Part shown: one piece after another, positions 9,576-16,975 of the stretch
Layout of the letters: each line of letters begins with the position of its first letter
Numbering within the stretch: the first letter of the stretch is position 1
Origin: a virus
DNA length: 20,864 bases
IMG/VR virus record: IMGVR_UViG_3300031659_000123
Location: 1-20,864 of that record
Reading direction: 5' to 3' (one strand)
Made by a program: the position numbers and the translations under genes
The notes under the pieces: model-generated
What the model saw: only the letters and a program-made list of their open reading frames with translations
What the model was told of the DNA's origin: nothing
Database searches by the model: none

Positions 9576-12131
9576 ATGGCCGAAAGAATAGTTAGCCCAG
9601 GTGTTTTTACACAGGAAAACGACTTATCTTTTTTACCAGTGGGAATTGGTGAAATAGGAGCAGTAATAATTGGTAGAACCCAAACAGGACCAGCATTTAA
9701 ACCTGTACAAGTTAGATCAATGAACGAATTTGAACTTAGATTTGGTAGTAGTACATCAGGTACATACGTACCATTCACAGTGAAAGAATATATTAAAAGT
9801 GCCGGTGTTGTTACGATCGTTAGAGTCTTAGGACTAAACGGTTTTGATGCGTCAGACCAAGTATTTTTAATAGCGTCAGGATCTACAACTGGTCCTTCAG
9901 GATCAACAGTAGCCGCGTCTACCCCATTCTTATTGGGAGTCTTACACGCATCAGCCAACGGCGACAACGCAACAAAGGATGGTTTATTAGCTGAGACAAA
10001 TATTAACTTTGGTTATTCTCAATCTAAAGCTTGGTCAGACGCTAGTGGAGACATCATAGGAAATGACGCAGGCCCATTTGGAGGAGCACTTACTGGAAAC
10101 GGACAGTTATCTCTTACTAAATTCTTTGGTCATTTAGCATCAGTACACCAAACAGCGTCGTTTGATAAAACAAATGATTACTATATTCCTAAATTAGTAG
10201 GTAAAGGACCAGGAATACATGTTCCATCGGCAGCTTATAATGTAAACCAACCTGCATCGTATGTTTACTCAATATTTAACTCTCAATCATATGGTGCAGA
10301 CAGCAACAATAAAGGAGGTGGATATAGCTTTAATAACGCATCTGCATCCCTTGGATCCATTACATTTAACGCAGCAGCTGCATCTGTAACTGGTACTAAT
10401 TCATTAACATCAGGTAAAGAATACGTAAACGCAAGTACTCCTTGGGTAATTTCGCAAACTGTAAACGCTAAAAACTTCCCGTTGGTTAAATTCCATACTG
10501 TATCTGATGGTTCAGATTCAAATAGAAAATATAAAATAAGCATAATGTCTATAAAATATGCAGGAAGTATAGGCGGACAAGACTATGGAAGCTTTTCTGT
10601 TATTGTTAGACCTATCGGTGATACAGATAATAAAGTACTTGCTTTAGAATCATACTCAAACTGTAACTTGGATCCTAGCTCACCAAACTATATCGCTAGA
10701 ATAATAGGTGATAGGCATACTTCTTATGATGGTAACGGTAAATTAGTTACTAGTGGAGACTACCCTAATATATCTAAATTTATACGTGTAGAATGCCACG
10801 CAAACGTAGGAAATGCAGTATATGATGAATCTTTAATTCCGTTTGGAAATGAAGCTTATATATCCCCATTGGCGGTAACTAACTTGTCTAGTTCTTTAGT
10901 AGCATCTTACCCTGCAGCTGCTCTAGTAACATCTAGAAGTTTAGCTACAGATACAACTACATATTTCGGATTCAACTTTAACGAAACTATATTGAAGAAC
11001 GGTGGATACAATTATTTAGCTCCACTTTCTGATAACGCGGTAATTGGTAATAATTCAAACTTCTTACTAGAAAACAGTACTGATGGTATGGCAACTGCCG
11101 CTGCTGATCCATTAATTAAAGTTTCTGGAAGTACAGCCCTAAATGCTAAAAGATTTACAATTGCTTTCCAAGGAGGATTTGATGGAGTTAACCCTGCTAA
11201 ACAAGTTGCTATTGGAAAAGATATGTTATCAACCAATACGTTTGGATTTAGTTTTGCAAGTACAACTGCAGACGGATACGTTGCGTATAAGAAAGCTCTT
11301 GATACTGTAACTAATCCTGATGAAATAGATATTAATCTTATTGTTACTCCAGGAATACTTACTCAGAATGCAGCTAATTTTGCAACAAAAGTAATGGATG
11401 TCTGCGAATCAAGAGGTGATTGCTTCTACGTTATAGACGGTGTTAACTCTCTTAATGGAGACAGTGTAACAGCCGCAACAACACAAGCCGCTAATTATGA
11501 TACAAATTATGCAGCAATGTATTACCCATGGGTTAGAGTATTCGACGCAACAATAAATAGATTCTTATTTGTTCCCCCGTCAGTAGTAATTCCTGGTGTA
11601 TACTCCTTCAATGATAAGGTTGCCTTCCCATGGTTTGCTCCAGCTGGTCTTAATCGTGGTAGTTTAACAACAGTTACTGAACCATACACTAGACTAACTC
11701 ATGCAGAAAGAGATGATTTATACGAAGGTAAAGTTAATCCAATTGCAATATTCCCGAATACAGGAGTTTGCGTATGGGGCCAAAAGACTTTACAAACTAA
11801 ACCATCAGCGCTTGATAGAATTAATGTTAGAAGATTGCTAATTAAACTTAAGAAATTTATTGCATCTTCTACTAGATACTTGGTATTTGAAAATAACACA
11901 ACAGCAACGAGAAATAGATTCTTAAATATTGTTAATCCATATCTTGAAACAGTTCAACAACAACAAGGTTTATATGCTTTTAAAGTTATTATGGATGAAT
12001 CAAATAATACTCCTGATGTTATAGATAGAAATCAAATGAAAGGTGAAATATTCCTACAGCCTGCAAAAGCTGCGGAATTTATCATTGTAGACTTTAACAT
12101 CATGAGAACAGGTGCATCTTTTGAAGAATAA
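9576..12131 (+). CDS. 18: Contractile tail sheath protein, T4 gp18-like
   Basis: The 851-residue protein starts with the sheath signature SPGVFTQENDLSF (about 6-18) followed by GAVIIGRTQTGPAF and FELRFG, and ends with the conserved domain: YPWVRVFDA, PPSVVIPGVYSFND, FPWFAPAGLNRG (about 687-698), a TRYLVFENN segment, and MKGEIFLQPAKAAEFIIVDFN near the C-terminus. Sheath subunits stack around the tube and contract at injection. T4 gp18 is 659 residues, so this one carries close to 190 extra, in a Ser/Asn/Gly-rich middle (roughly residues 110-560) likely to be surface domains. The binding site GAGGAGA (9563-9569) is one of the strongest in the window. It is followed after 43 bases by the tube gene, with no terminator between. 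Confidence 0.95.
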   Translation: MAERIVSPGVFTQENDLSFLPVGIGEIGAVIIGRTQTGPAFKPVQVRSMNEFELRFGSSTSGTYVPFTVKEYIKSAGVVTIVRVLGLNGFDASDQVFLIASGSTTGPSGSTVAASTPFLLGVLHASANGDNATKDGLLAETNINFGYSQSKAWSDASGDIIGNDAGPFGGALTGNGQLSLTKFFGHLASVHQTASFDKTNDYYIPKLVGKGPGIHVPSAAYNVNQPASYVYSIFNSQSYGADSNNKGGGYSFNNASASLGSITFNAAAASVTGTNSLTSGKEYVNASTPWVISQTVNAKNFPLVKFHTVSDGSDSNRKYKISIMSIKYAGSIGGQDYGSFSVIVRPIGDTDNKVLALESYSNCNLDPSSPNYIARIIGDRHTSYDGNGKLVTSGDYPNISKFIRVECHANVGNAVYDESLIPFGNEAYISPLAVTNLSSSLVASYPAAALVTSRSLATDTTTYFGFNFNETILKNGGYNYLAPLSDNAVIGNNSNFLLENSTDGMATAAADPLIKVSGSTALNAKRFTIAFQGGFDGVNPAKQVAIGKDMLSTNTFGFSFASTTADGYVAYKKALDTVTNPDEIDINLIVTPGILTQNAANFATKVMDVCESRGDCFYVIDGVNSLNGDSVTAATTQAANYDTNYAAMYYPWVRVFDATINRFLFVPPSVVIPGVYSFNDKVAFPWFAPAGLNRGSLTTVTEPYTRLTHAERDDLYEGKVNPIAIFPNTGVCVWGQKTLQTKPSALDRINVRRLLIKLKKFIASSTRYLVFENNTTATRNRFLNIVNPYLETVQQQQGLYAFKVIMDESNNTPDVIDRNQMKGEIFLQPAKAAEFIIVDFNIMRTGASFEE

Positions 12132-12776: not shown

Positions 12777-13649
12777 ATGACTAAAGTAGTAGACCAAGAT
12801 TACCCAGGGCAAGACAGATTATCAGACCAAGATATTAAAAATTTAGCTATTCAACAGGCTAGCCCAGCCGTAAATGAATCAGTGAAAAATTATGCGTTTC
12901 CAACTGAAACTATAGATTTACCCAGTAGAGGTTTGTTGTATCAAGAAAACAGCCCCTTATCATCGGGAACTATTGAGATTAAGTATATGACCGCAAAAGA
13001 AGAAGATATTCTTACTTCTCAAAACTTAATTAAAAATGGAACAGTTATTGACGTATTACTGCGATCCCTTATAGTTAGCCCTATAAATTACAATGAATTG
13101 CTTGTTGGTGATAAAAACGCAATAATGATTGCAGCAAGAGTTTTAGCGTATGGTAAAAATTATGAGGTTGAATTAACCAATCCATCTACTGGAGCAAAGC
13201 AAACTGAAAACATAGACCTTACGTTATTTTCCAATAAAAACTTTGATGAAGATAACTTTGAAAAAGGCCAAAATAAATTTTCGTTTCAATTGCCTGCATC
13301 TAAAAGAATGCTTGAGTTCAAGCTTTTAACACACGGTGATGATAAACAGATAGCAGATTCAATAAAGGCCGCTAAAAAGGCTTCAAACAGAATATCCGGT
13401 GTGTCACCTGAGTTAAGCACTCGATTAAAGCATATGATTGTTTCTGTTGACGGAGAAATGGATAGAATCAAAATATCTAAATTTGTGGATACGGAATTCT
13501 TATCTAGAGACTCAATTGAATTTAGAGAATACATTAAACAAGTATCGCCTGATATAGACCTTACATATGTATATTATGGCGAAGATGATGGCGAAGAATA
13601 CTCAGTAACCATGCCAATGTCCGTTAAGTTTTTTTGGCCTAGGTCCTAA
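12777..13649 (+). CDS. T4 gp26-like protein (T4_baseplate family), probable tail assembly chaperone
   Basis: The 290-residue protein shows the features of the T4_baseplate family, to which T4 gp26 belongs: IDLPSRGLLY (about 47-56), IEIKYMTAKEEDILTSQNLIKNG (about 66-88), a VLLRSLI helix, and an acidic C-terminus ending in KFFWPRS. T4 gp26 (208 residues) is needed for hub assembly but is not seen in the finished baseplate, as for a chaperone. Here the gene lies between tail tube and tape measure, exactly where tail-assembly chaperones sit in most long-tailed phages. Its last codons cross a run of seven T followed by a hairpin, and the +1 frame is open there into a 72-codon extension (see separate entries), giving a predicted second product of about 358 residues. 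The binding site is AAGGAGA at 12764-12770. Confidence 0.78.
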   Translation: MTKVVDQDYPGQDRLSDQDIKNLAIQQASPAVNESVKNYAFPTETIDLPSRGLLYQENSPLSSGTIEIKYMTAKEEDILTSQNLIKNGTVIDVLLRSLIVSPINYNELLVGDKNAIMIAARVLAYGKNYEVELTNPSTGAKQTENIDLTLFSNKNFDEDNFEKGQNKFSFQLPASKRMLEFKLLTHGDDKQIADSIKAAKKASNRISGVSPELSTRLKHMIVSVDGEMDRIKISKFVDTEFLSRDSIEFREYIKQVSPDIDLTYVYYGEDDGEEYSVTMPMSVKFFWPRS

Positions 13650-13659
13650 CTATAGGGCC
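13629..13659 (+). other. Candidate programmed frameshift site (T7 run plus hairpin)
   Basis: In the gp26-like frame the codons are AAG TTT TTT TGG CCT AGG TCC TAA. The seven T (13629-13635) let Phe-tRNA on 13632-13634 re-pair perfectly as UUU one base forward (13633-13635) or two bases back (13630-13632); both lead into the same open downstream frame. Six bases after the run, GGTCCTA (13642-13648) can pair with TAGGGCC (13653-13659) around an ACTA loop: seven pairs, one of them T-G, with the zero-frame stop (13647-13649) inside the hairpin. A slippery run, a spacer of about six bases and a stem-loop is the standard layout of programmed frameshift signals. A sequencing error in the T run is the main alternative. 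Confidence 0.6.
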
Positions 13660-13854
13660 ATCCTGCACACCTTGCTATTTGATATGGCATATTATTCGCA
13701 AGGGGGCTTCACTTGGACGGATTTATACACAATGCCAATACACCTCAGACGATTCTATCTTGATAAACTTCAAAAGGTTAAAAAGAGTGAAAAAGAAGAG
13801 GCTGAAAAACATAATAAAAAATCTCCATCGCCAAGACCACCCCGAAATAGATAA
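13636..13854 (+). CDS. Frameshift extension of the gp26-like protein (GpT-like chaperone domain)
   Basis: After the slip the frame reads GLGPNYRAILHTLLFDMAYY, then SQGGFTWTDLYTMPIHLRRF and a Lys/Glu-rich tail, 72 residues in total. The bases between the T run and the first possible start codon (TTG 13672 or ATG 13684) already code for plausible protein, and neither start has a purine-rich ribosome binding site in front (the upstream bases are CCTGCACACC and CTTGCTATTT), in contrast to most genes here. The Y-x-MP-x-x-L-R-x-x-Y-L-x-x-L pattern recalls the short downstream domains of tail chaperones that bind the tape measure. By analogy with lambda G/GT, a minority fusion product of the upstream protein would carry this domain. 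If it is an independent gene, the most likely start is ATG 13684 (56 residues). Confidence 0.62.
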   Translation, partial: GLGPNYRAILHTLLFDMAYYSQGGFTWTDLYTMPIHLRRFYLDKLQKVKKSEKEEAEKHNKKSPSPRPPRNR

Positions 13855-13910: not shown

Positions 13911-14138
13911 ATGACAGAAAAAGAATTACGCAAACAACTTAGATCAGAGGTTAAGGGCATTATATCAGAAGAGAATGCAATAACTAATCTTTTAGGTAAA
14001 ATTTTAAATGGTATGTCGTCTGCTGCCAAGAAAAGGGCATTGAAAAAGATGATAAATACACCTGAACTAGTTGCCCTTATGAAGTCTTCAGACAATCCTA
14101 GAACAAACGATTATATAGACAGAATAAACAACTTATAA
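13911..14138 (+). CDS. Small basic helical protein of unknown function
   Basis: This 75-residue protein is Lys-rich and helical: an N-terminal helix (MTEKELRKQLRSEVKGII), a second helix with AAKKRALKKMI (about 38-48), and a polar end with YIDRINNL. I recognise no family. It has a good AGGAGA site (13899-13904), its own promoter-like motif upstream, and sits eight bases before the tape measure. Because the tape measure has no binding site of its own, translation of this gene may open the tape-measure start. A role as a small tail-assembly or tape-measure-associated protein is inferred from place only. Confidence 0.68.
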   Translation: MTEKELRKQLRSEVKGIISEENAITNLLGKILNGMSSAAKKRALKKMINTPELVALMKSSDNPRTNDYIDRINNL

Positions 14139-14146
14139 TATAAATC

Positions 14147-16975
14147 ATGGCAAACTTCGAAGACATAAAAAAAGCTAATGATGAGCAAAAAAGGCTCAAT
14201 AAAAGTCTTGACGACGCTGCGACAAGGGTTGGCACAATGTACTCGAAGTACAGTGAGTTTTCAGATAAACGATCAAAGGCAGCCAAAAAATATAAGAAGC
14301 ATCTTGAAGCACAAGAAAAATCATTAGATACTATAAGTATAAAGATAGAAGAACAAGCGGTAAAGGTAAAGGAAATAGCCACCGAATATAAAGCTAAATT
14401 AGCTACTTCTGCCAAATTGAAATCCATTGAAAAAGAAATAACAGACTTTCAAAAGGAACAAACTTTGTATGCTGCTAGTATTGAAGGATATGATCAGTCG
14501 TCATTACTAACAGCAAAGGCTCAAGAAGCATTAGATAGTGGAAAGGTTGGAAAATCAAAAGCCATATTAGATGTTGCATCGCTTGAACGAGACTTAATGA
14601 AGGAAGTACTTGCTGGAAATCTTGATTTGGAAGATGTACAAGGAAGACAGGCAACTATAGTTTCAGATTTAGCAACCCAATACGATCTAACAGGAGAAGA
14701 AGTTGATAGTATAACTGGTGTTCTAGACGGACAATTTAATTCTGTAGCAGCCCTAAATGAAGAATTAAACGAATCAAATGCTCTTGGAATATCTAGGAGA
14801 GATATACTGCAATCCCAACAAACAGCGCTATCTGAACAAGATGATATGCTGAAAAAACTAAAGAAAGGCGCAACAAAGTATATTGGCGTATTTAGTAACG
14901 GATTTCTTGCCTTTGGAGCTATATCAAAATTCCTAGCGAGTCAAGTGTTAAGTACCAGAGATTTAGCAAAGAATCTAGGCGTAAGTCAAGGAAAAGCTTT
15001 CAGCTTAGGAAAGCAAACGAAACTTTTAAAGATGGAATTTGCAGGAATGGGAATGGACTTTACAGCCTCCCAAGCTCAAATGGTGGCAAATGCATCTGAT
15101 CTTTCTGAAGTAACATATGGAAATGTAAAAGCCGTAGGTATCATGTCAGAGCGATATGGTATGGGCGCTTCTGAAGCTGCAAAGTTAAGAAAAATACAAT
15201 TAGATATAACCGGTGGTAGTGAAGAGTCAGCTGACGCCCTTACAGCCGGCGCAATAGCATTAGCCGAGGCAAATAACGTAGCTCCAGGAGAAATACTTGC
15301 TGATATGGCTTCAAACAGTGAAGAATTTGCTAGATATGGAGCAGAAGGAGCAAAAAGAATGGCCCTTACTGCCGTGGCCACCAAAAAAATAGGCATAGAA
15401 ATGTCGTCATTAGTTTCTGCTAGTAGAGGCTTATTAGATATAGAAAATTCACTCAACGCAGAAATGGAAGCAGAAGTAATGTTGGGTAGAGAGCTTAATC
15501 TTGAAACAGCCAGATCTGCTGCATTACGAGGTGATCATTTAACCGTCGTAAAAGAATTAGCAAAAGAGTTCGGTTCTGTAGAAGACTTTCAAAATTTATC
15601 TGTACTACAACAAGAAGCCGCCGCTGCCGCCGCCGGATTAACTGTTGAAGAAATGACTAAAATGCTAGCCAATCAGCACAAGATAACAAGTCTTAAGGGT
15701 GAAGAACTAGAACATTTTAAAAAGACTGGTGAATTAGCTGCTGAGGCAATTCCATATAGTGAAAGAGCAGCCGGATTTGCAGCTGAACATGTGAATTCAA
15801 TCATTGCTGGAGTCGGTGCATATTCATCTATGAAATCTGGTATTAAAGATATTGCCTCCGCTGCAAAAAGTGGTATGGGTGTACTTGCTAAATTTGTAGG
15901 CTTAGGCAAAGATAAAGGACCAGTAACAGATTTAACTGATAAAGTATCAGGACAAGCAAAAGCCAAAGGTAAAGACTTAGTTTCAAAGATTGCAGATAAA
16001 GCCAAAGGTAAAGACTTAGTTTCAAAGGTCGCAGATAAAGCCAAATCAAAAGGTAAAGACCTAGTTTCAGCAGGTACAGATAAAATAAAATCAGCAATAC
16101 CAAGCCCAAGTAAAGCATCAGATGCAGCAGCCGGTACTTCAGGCAAAGGCTCAACAGGATTTATGAAGAGTCTGGGAAAAATTGATATGAAAAAAGTTCT
16201 TATGGGAGCAGCCGCAATGCTTATAGTAGCAGCTGCTGTATACGTATTCGGTAAGGCAGTTCAGGAATTCTCAGAGGTTAGTTGGGGAGATATTGGAAAA
16301 GCCGTTGTCGGTATGTTGGCTCTTGTTGGAGCAGTTGCCATACTTGGTATGATTATGTCTTCCGGTGTAGGAGCAGTAGCTATAATAGCTGGTGCGGCCG
16401 CAATGCTAATAGTTGCCGTGGCAGTTTACGTTTTAGGGAAAGCAATACAAGAAATGGCTAAAGGATTTTCAATGATGGGAGAAATAGGTGAAACGATATC
16501 GGAACTGGCAGGTTTAGGACCGGCATTCTTCATGATCGCCGCTGGATTCGCAGCGATGGGCTTAGGATTACTTCCCTTTGCCTTTGGCCTAGCAGCAATT
16601 ACGCCATTCCTTCCAACACTAATGGCTTTAGCAGCTATGGGAGCCGTACTAGGAACAGTATTTGGTGTATTTAGCGGAGGAGGTGAAGATGAATCTGAAG
16701 AAGTTGCCGTAACCCAACCAGGCAAAGAATCATCTGTTGATTCTGATGATACGGAAGAAACCTCTAACAACCTAACCTCAAAATCAACTGGCAAATCTGA
16801 ACCAGATGAATCAAAAACGGAAGATACAACTGAAAAAGATAATGGTGGAAATATTCAATTATTGGCTAAAATAGATGAATTAATAGGCGTAATTAAACAA
16901 GGTGGTGACGTTAAATTAGATGGTAGAAAAGTTGGCGAAACCATGTTCTTAGGCAGAACCCCAGCAGGAGCATAA
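14147..16975 (+). CDS. Tail tape measure protein (T4 gp29-position)
   Basis: The 942-residue protein is the tape measure: a long helical N-terminus rich in Lys, Glu and Ala with heptad-like spacing (about 1-130), a hydrophobic patch (GFLAFGAISKFLASQVL, about 252-268), a long Ala/Met/Glu-rich helical middle (about 270-560), a 13-residue Lys-rich tandem repeat (about 606-646), strongly hydrophobic segments (about 684-845) containing a duplicated 20-residue stretch, an acidic Ser/Thr-rich linker and a short C-terminal domain ending in GRTPAGA. Tape measures stretch along the tube, set tail length and are ejected with the DNA; the hydrophobic part may enter the host membrane. At the usual ~1.5 Angstrom per residue this would give a tail near 140 nm. 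T4 gp29 is 590 residues. The start lacks a Shine-Dalgarno sequence (upstream TATAATATAAATC). Confidence 0.85.
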   Translation: MANFEDIKKANDEQKRLNKSLDDAATRVGTMYSKYSEFSDKRSKAAKKYKKHLEAQEKSLDTISIKIEEQAVKVKEIATEYKAKLATSAKLKSIEKEITDFQKEQTLYAASIEGYDQSSLLTAKAQEALDSGKVGKSKAILDVASLERDLMKEVLAGNLDLEDVQGRQATIVSDLATQYDLTGEEVDSITGVLDGQFNSVAALNEELNESNALGISRRDILQSQQTALSEQDDMLKKLKKGATKYIGVFSNGFLAFGAISKFLASQVLSTRDLAKNLGVSQGKAFSLGKQTKLLKMEFAGMGMDFTASQAQMVANASDLSEVTYGNVKAVGIMSERYGMGASEAAKLRKIQLDITGGSEESADALTAGAIALAEANNVAPGEILADMASNSEEFARYGAEGAKRMALTAVATKKIGIEMSSLVSASRGLLDIENSLNAEMEAEVMLGRELNLETARSAALRGDHLTVVKELAKEFGSVEDFQNLSVLQQEAAAAAAGLTVEEMTKMLANQHKITSLKGEELEHFKKTGELAAEAIPYSERAAGFAAEHVNSIIAGVGAYSSMKSGIKDIASAAKSGMGVLAKFVGLGKDKGPVTDLTDKVSGQAKAKGKDLVSKIADKAKGKDLVSKVADKAKSKGKDLVSAGTDKIKSAIPSPSKASDAAAGTSGKGSTGFMKSLGKIDMKKVLMGAAAMLIVAAAVYVFGKAVQEFSEVSWGDIGKAVVGMLALVGAVAILGMIMSSGVGAVAIIAGAAAMLIVAVAVYVLGKAIQEMAKGFSMMGEIGETISELAGLGPAFFMIAAGFAAMGLGLLPFAFGLAAITPFLPTLMALAAMGAVLGTVFGVFSGGGEDESEEVAVTQPGKESSVDSDDTEETSNNLTSKSTGKSEPDESKTEDTTEKDNGGNIQLLAKIDELIGVIKQGGDVKLDGRKVGETMFLGRTPAGA
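15962..16087 (+). repeat. 39-base tandem repeat in the tape-measure gene
   Basis: Three head-to-tail copies start at 15962, 16001 and 16040 (period 39 bases, 13 codons). They code for AKGKDLVSKIADK, AKGKDLVSKVADK and AKSKGKDLVSAGTDK; the third has a two-codon insertion and a diverged end. The first two copies differ at very few bases. Confidence 0.85.

Follow-up and report, generated by a model that had tools for sequence, protein, structure and literature searches.

Gene content and reading frames of the locus

The region described here belongs to a 20,864-base IMG/VR virus record, analysed over its whole length (hereafter the window), which carries a tail module of the T4-like type. Sheath, tube, gp26-like gene, extension and tape measure follow one another in an order that is common to phages immuto and SP-15, where the tape measure is annotated. 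The features relevant to the analysis are as follows:

9576-12131, tail sheath, 851 aa
12175-12666, plus strand, tail tube protein (gp19-like), 5' neighbour of the gp26-like gene (PF06841, E 1.4e-6; PHROG 4542, E 8.7e-25)
12777-13649, plus strand, putative gp26-like short chaperone (TAC-N, lambda gpG-like), an ORF of 290 aa with the C-terminus FFWPRS-stop
13629-13637, plus strand, predicted slip site TTT_TTT_TGG (sequence register; comparison of 81 loci)
13636-13854, plus strand, +1-frame C-terminal extension (TAC-C, gpT-like) of 72 aa (open frame, conserved protein, third-position bias, hhalign)
13642-13659, plus strand, 7-bp hairpin GGTCCTA/TAGGGCC with an ACTA loop, overlapping the 0-frame stop; a possible, lineage-specific stimulator
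13647-13649, plus strand, 0-frame stop TAA soon 3' of the slip site (sequence; an early 0-frame stop in all relatives)
13911-14138, plus strand, small ORF of 75 aa that has a ribosome-binding site of its own and separates the chaperone gene from the tape measure
14147-16975, plus strand, tape-measure protein candidate of 942 aa, 3' neighbour (PHROG 4372 tape measure, E 1.4e-4)

The gp26-like gene thus sits between tail tube and tape measure, which is the position of tail-assembly chaperones of the gpG/gpGT type. In the sheath, Pfam sheath domains cover residues 575-842 only, and much of the N-terminal or inserted part has no Pfam assignment.

The gp26-like ORF ends in the codons AAG TTT TTT TGG CCT AGG TCC TAA, in which TTTTTTTGGCC underlies F-F-W-P-R-S-stop and the run of seven T's (13629-13635) opens the 0-frame register TTT TTT TGG. 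From 13636 the +1 frame is free of stops up to 13854, beginning GLGPNYRAIL..., and the 0-frame TAA overlaps its P-N-Y codons. The T run and the frame left open behind it had been pointed out in a first-pass annotation of this DNA, and both are borne out. The codons at the slip site are UUU (13632-13634) in the P site and UGG (13635-13637) in the A site; after a +1 slip the P-site tRNA would lie on 13633-13635, the next codon being GGC (13636-13638). A canonical -1 heptamer of the form X_XXY_YYZ was considered for the window and ruled out, since the codons fall as TTT_TTT_TGG and it is the +1 frame that is open.

Conservation of the slip site and the extension

A first set of 81 loci was compiled, made up of the window plus 80 related loci on viral contigs (45-84% identity). 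In all 81, TTTTTTTGG, TTTTTTTAC or TTTCTTTGG occurs at the same codon, so that the pattern TTT[T/C]TTT(GG/AC) is invariant, and in all 81 the 0 frame closes no more than about 9 codons further on while the +1 frame stays open; two of these contigs break off inside the extension. The extension is also conserved as a protein (G-L-x-P-x-Y-R...GGF...VYNMP..LR.FY). A further scan that started from a distant member added 76 more readable loci, some of them on contigs of the first set, and every one (76/76) showed the same arrangement of site, early 0-frame stop and open +1 frame. Both scans combined gave 123 distinct extensions. Isolates with open +1 extensions are Mel-JY01 (TTTTTTTGG), immuto (TTTCTTTGG), SP-15 (TTTTTTCAC) and GXN1 (TTCTTTCGT). 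Scans for gp26 seeded with RAS14 returned no matches, and those seeded with SP-15 and IC12 returned essentially self-matches only.

At the Phe-Phe sites TTTTTT was found in 72 of 72 cases (76 distinct genes), while the other Phe codons of these genes are TTT in 77.5% and TTC in 22%. Among moderately related pairs, which share ancestry so that the counts do not represent independent events, differences in the extension were distributed as 782, 438 and 2052 over the first, second and third codon positions of the +1 frame, and codon differences comprised 1496 synonymous and 933 non-synonymous ones. This is the pattern of sequence that codes for protein in the +1 frame.

Alignment with relatives, proposed in the first-pass annotation as a check, therefore upheld the T-rich site and the open +1 frame, whereas the covarying hairpin that it also anticipated is confined to a subset (see below). 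Among the relatives examined neither a run of six T's nor an in-frame fusion was seen, nor a stop between the frames or a miscounted run, observations that the annotation had listed as telling against a frameshift. In the deposited records of Flavobacterium phage immuto (L095:3983-4946) and Microcystis phage Mel-JY01 (L094:3914-4994) no frameshift is annotated, and the extension appears as a truncated or overlapping hypothetical ORF.

Direction and mechanism of the proposed shift

The site with seven T's allows both a +1 and a -2 movement, and natural variants of the site help to separate the two. These include TTCTTTTGG and TTCTTTTAC at loci L204 (GAC TTC TTT TGG) and L200 (GGC TTC TTT TAC), the site of Streptococcus phage GXN1 (GAA TTC TTT CGT) and that of LR756508 (AAC TTT CTA). 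In all four a +1 move re-pairs on UUU or UUC, whereas a -2 move would bring the Phe-tRNA onto UCU in L204, L200 and GXN1, and onto ACU in LR756508. More generally, all members of the +1 clade have a P-site codon able to re-pair at +1 (UUU_U, CUU_U or UUU_C), and the 0-frame A-site codon in the main clade is UGG or UAC.

Ribosomal slippage by -2, in the style of phage Mu, would yield the same fusion with one extra Phe (KFFFG). Re-pairing on UUU at -2 is perfect in the seven-T sites, and Listeria phage LIS04 (TTTTTTAGT) fits such a movement, although a +1 slip one codon earlier would fit it too. The reading is nevertheless unlikely: in TTCTTTTGG, TTCTTTTAC and TTCTTTCGT the Phe-tRNA would meet UCU with a mismatch at the middle base, and TTT_CTA at L096 offers no good -2 partner. 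The first-pass annotation had left the direction as +1 or -2; since TTC_TTT_TGG, TTC_TTT_TAC and TTC_TTT_CGT, the variants that carry TTC_TTT_T or TTC_TTT_C, cannot slip by -2, the former direction is favoured over the latter. Slippage of the polymerase on the T run, producing mRNAs with altered U counts that are decoded normally, would find its homopolymer of seven T's in most members. The variants TTTCTTT, TTCTTTT and TTCTTTC, however, interrupt the run and keep the frame arrangement, and because they do so we regard transcriptional slippage as quite improbable. The best reading of these sites is a probable +1 ribosomal slippage at UUU_Y (CUU_U); for the members with seven T's we infer both the +1 direction and that it is the ribosome which slips.

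Relationship to gp26 and gp51 of T4

The gp26-like protein of the window matches PF12322 (E 1.9e-10) and PHROG 150 (E 6.3e-13), and the N-domain match to PF12322 recurs in 39 of 47 relatives. T4 gp26 and T4 gp51 match these same families. On the PHROG 150 profile T4 gp51 spans nearly the full length and T4 gp26 ends short, therefore gp51 can be described as a paralogue of gp26 plus an extension. Using hhalign, the window fusion aligned with the cyanophage gp26+gp51 fusion (E 8.5e-13), the alignment continuing through the extension, and the extension of the window family on its own aligned with the cyanophage gp51 extension (E 2.1e-7). The cyanophage fusion in turn aligned with T4 gp51 (E 4.7e-21) and cyanophage gp51 with the T4 gp51 C-terminus (E 2.9e-13); reversed controls gave 0.15-0.66, with one exception at 0.024, those for the fusion alignments lying near 0.5 and those for the extension alignments at 0.28-0.66. 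Compared directly, the profiles of the window family and T4 gp51 match weakly (E 0.0035), so that their connection depends on the cyanophage bridge. Judged from these profile alignments, the window extension appears to be the same domain as cyanophage gp51 and the T4 gp51 C-terminus.

Pfam and PHROG scans with the extension alone gave nothing significant, and a sequence search of the PDB with the family profile gave no match. The AlphaFold model of the 0-frame protein (pLDDT 84.9) retrieved through Foldseek the 'baseplate hub subunit' of SP-15 (E 1.3e-19) and T4-like baseplate-hub proteins in BFVD, and its best fold match in the PDB was the HK97 tail assembly chaperone 2ob9, at a non-significant E of 0.55. 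Some gp26-like relatives also have CxxC zinc-ribbon-like motifs, seen as weak Pfam zinc-ribbon matches in up to 12 of 47; the window member gives no match of this kind.

A probable tail-assembly chaperone in two lengths

Taken together, the site, the open frame, its conservation and coding constraint, synteny and the homology to T4 gp26/gp51 support a programmed frameshift that yields short and long chaperones. We consider it highly probable that a T4-like myophage makes its tail-assembly chaperone from this locus as both a short and a long protein, the long one arising through a +1 slip; conserved site, open frame and coding bias are the sequence-level marks of a short product and its frameshift-extended counterpart of the gpG/gpGT type. 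Most ribosomes would terminate after FFWPRS and release the short form, equivalent to gpG/TAC-N, which may coat the tape-measure protein. While the P-site Phe-tRNA sits on UUU and the A site presents UGG, a fraction of ribosomes would slip by +1, from UUU_UGG to U_UUU_GGC, and decode 72 more codons to give the long form, equivalent to gpGT/TAC-NC, whose extra domain may recruit tail-tube subunits. Both the efficiency of the slip and the roles of the two products are presumed in this scheme. The first-pass annotation proposed that a programmed frameshift fuses the gp26-like protein to the extension; conservation and codon-position bias uphold this, as do gene order and homology.

A small gene that is never fused, and is translated either from a separate start or through reinitiation, would be in keeping with a conserved ATG near the stop in cyanophage gp51, with the overlapping TAATG of Pseudomonas phage Cygsa01 and with the annotation of Mel-JY01 as two overlapping genes. 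In the window clade, however, the first 20 codons lack a start in 53 of the 76 extensions, protein conservation starts right at the slip site, and T4 gp51 holds both parts in one protein. In the window itself the candidate start tested, TTG at 13672, has a weak anti-SD score (-2.6), against -8.7 for gp26 and -7.4 for the ORF at 13911, as expected from the earlier remark that starts in the extension have no ribosome-binding site. We therefore judge a separate gene to be very unlikely. That a fused gene was misread in sequencing or assembly, or that the gene has decayed, has virtually no probability left even though homopolymers are error-prone in some technologies, because the same frame relation recurs in the relatives, which amount to some 120 distinct sequences from metagenomes and several genomes of isolates, some without a homopolymer.

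The first-pass annotation had also recast gp26 as a tail-assembly chaperone. Gene order and homology support this, but the idea is not new. T4 genes 26 and 51 are reportedly named in the abstract of a study by Vladimirov and colleagues. According to papers that cite it (PMC10885494, PMC12846349), that study identified the chaperones of T4-like phages (Vladimirov, Gautam and Davidson 2022, Virology 566:9-15), and on this indirect account the chaperone identity of the gp26 family can be regarded as already published. The further suggestion, that T4 baseplates lack gp26, is in doubt: PMC3004832 states that gp51 is not in the final T4 particle, yet refers to genetic work that assigns gp26 to the hub.

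Possible stimulatory elements

The window hairpin begins six bases 3' of the T run, as had been described, and as a piece of evidence it fared unevenly. On its own it is weak, since 11 of 100 codon shuffles gave an equally good one, so that it is ordinary for its composition, and it is present in only roughly a third of the relatives, many of which have no hairpin at all. Among 30 sequences with the same spacing it does covary: 81.8% of the cells were paired, against 69.2% when shuffled and at most 49.8% when slid, and six of the seven pairs changed on both sides. The hairpin is best read as a possible stimulator, or a relic of one, in part of the clade. A role as general stimulator was rejected, as it is missing from most relatives. 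Shine-Dalgarno-like pairing 5' of the slip site exceeds that in the rest of the genes only mildly (-3.02 vs -1.55). Across the clade there seems to be no obligatory stimulator, a point that counts against a programmed shift.

Comparison with known systems and possible evolution of the shift

+1 shifts at UUU or CUU followed by a pyrimidine have well-known counterparts in prfB (CUU_UGA) and influenza PA-X (UUU_CGU), and GXN1 itself has UUU_CGU. In prfB a stop codon occupies the A site, whereas the window clade has a sense codon, UGG or UAC, and a weak SD-like signal. Sense-codon +1 frameshifts are uncommon in bacterial systems, and the present one is retained in over a hundred lineages, whose natural variants distinguish +1 from -2, and versions that depend on structure from those that do not.

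The literature describes the G-T frameshift as a conserved feature of long-tailed phages 'except T4', and gives -1 and -2 (Mu) versions as well as a version that is very likely +1 (HSTV-2) (PMC5009743). Lambda gpG/gpGT, P2, Mu and HSTV-2 share with the window clade the position before the tape measure and the production of short and long forms by frameshift, but they use other slip sites, lambda shifting by -1, Mu by -2 and HSTV-2 very likely by +1 like the window clade (PMC5009743). No sequence homology of the window family to the chaperones of these four was found in the family searches made.

Closer to hand, T4 gp26 and gp51 share the homologous N-domain (PF12322, PHROG 150), the homologous C-terminal extension and the short and long chaperone, however in T4 the two forms come from two genes. 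Some T4-like phages have one short gene and one long fusion gene (PMC10885494, reporting Vladimirov et al. 2022), and poly-T signals in T4-like TAC-N genes are given as -1 in a paper citing that work (PMC12846349, reporting Vladimirov et al. 2022), whereas the frame relation in the window clade is +1. A two-length chaperone in T4-like phages, produced either from two genes or by slipping backwards, was hence already known. A +1 shift that takes place at a sense codon throughout a clade and has no obligatory hairpin was not found described in the accessible literature and appears to be new.

The cyanophages (Synechococcus phage Sf-FS3 and relatives) have the same gene pair and a shifted-frame extension at the end of gp26, but every one of the 80 loci carries T_TTT_TTC, a canonical -1 heptamer, at the junction, in contrast to +1 at UUU_U in the window clade. 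Their gp51 ('baseplate hub assembly catalyst'; L109:2974-3890, L114-L193) carries the annotation of a separate gene and lies in the -1 frame immediately 3' of gp26. The -1 design was also found in Aeromonas phage phiAS5 and in Rhizobium phages IC12 and RL38J1.

A tree was built from 63 N-domains. One change accounts in it for the +1 members, on a branch with a support of only 66 where long branches meet, and one for the T4 two-gene members, with a support of 97; -1 members are scattered over several branches. A -1 ancestor with a single switch to +1 fits this tree, without being proven. We offer tentatively, at somewhat less than even chances, a fuller scenario in which a large, mostly uncultivated T4-like clade would have switched once, from an ancestral -1 shift to +1 at a sense codon (UUU_UGG or UUU_UAC) that works without a stop codon, an obligatory hairpin or a strong Shine-Dalgarno element, the slip being driven by slow decoding of UGG/UAC or by the FFWP/FFYP context, which is conserved.

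Within the gp26 family the same two-length chaperone thus arises in four ways, by a shift of -1 or of +1, by duplication of the gene (T4) or from overlapping stop and start codons, and with this variety the evolution of recoding becomes testable. Routine annotation should be corrected accordingly, as these phages have one gene where a 'baseplate hub' gp26 and a small ORF, 'hypothetical' or 'gp51', are listed. Two further genomes deserve mention. In Stenotrophomonas phage RAS14 (320 kb genome; L100:4800-5050) the gp26-like gene passes through AG_T_TTT_TTT and has an open -1 extension. In Pseudomonas phage Cygsa01 (L112:3300-3482), which has no clear slip site, the gp26 stop and gp51 start overlap, an arrangement that suggests that its gp51 may be made by reinitiation instead of frameshifting.
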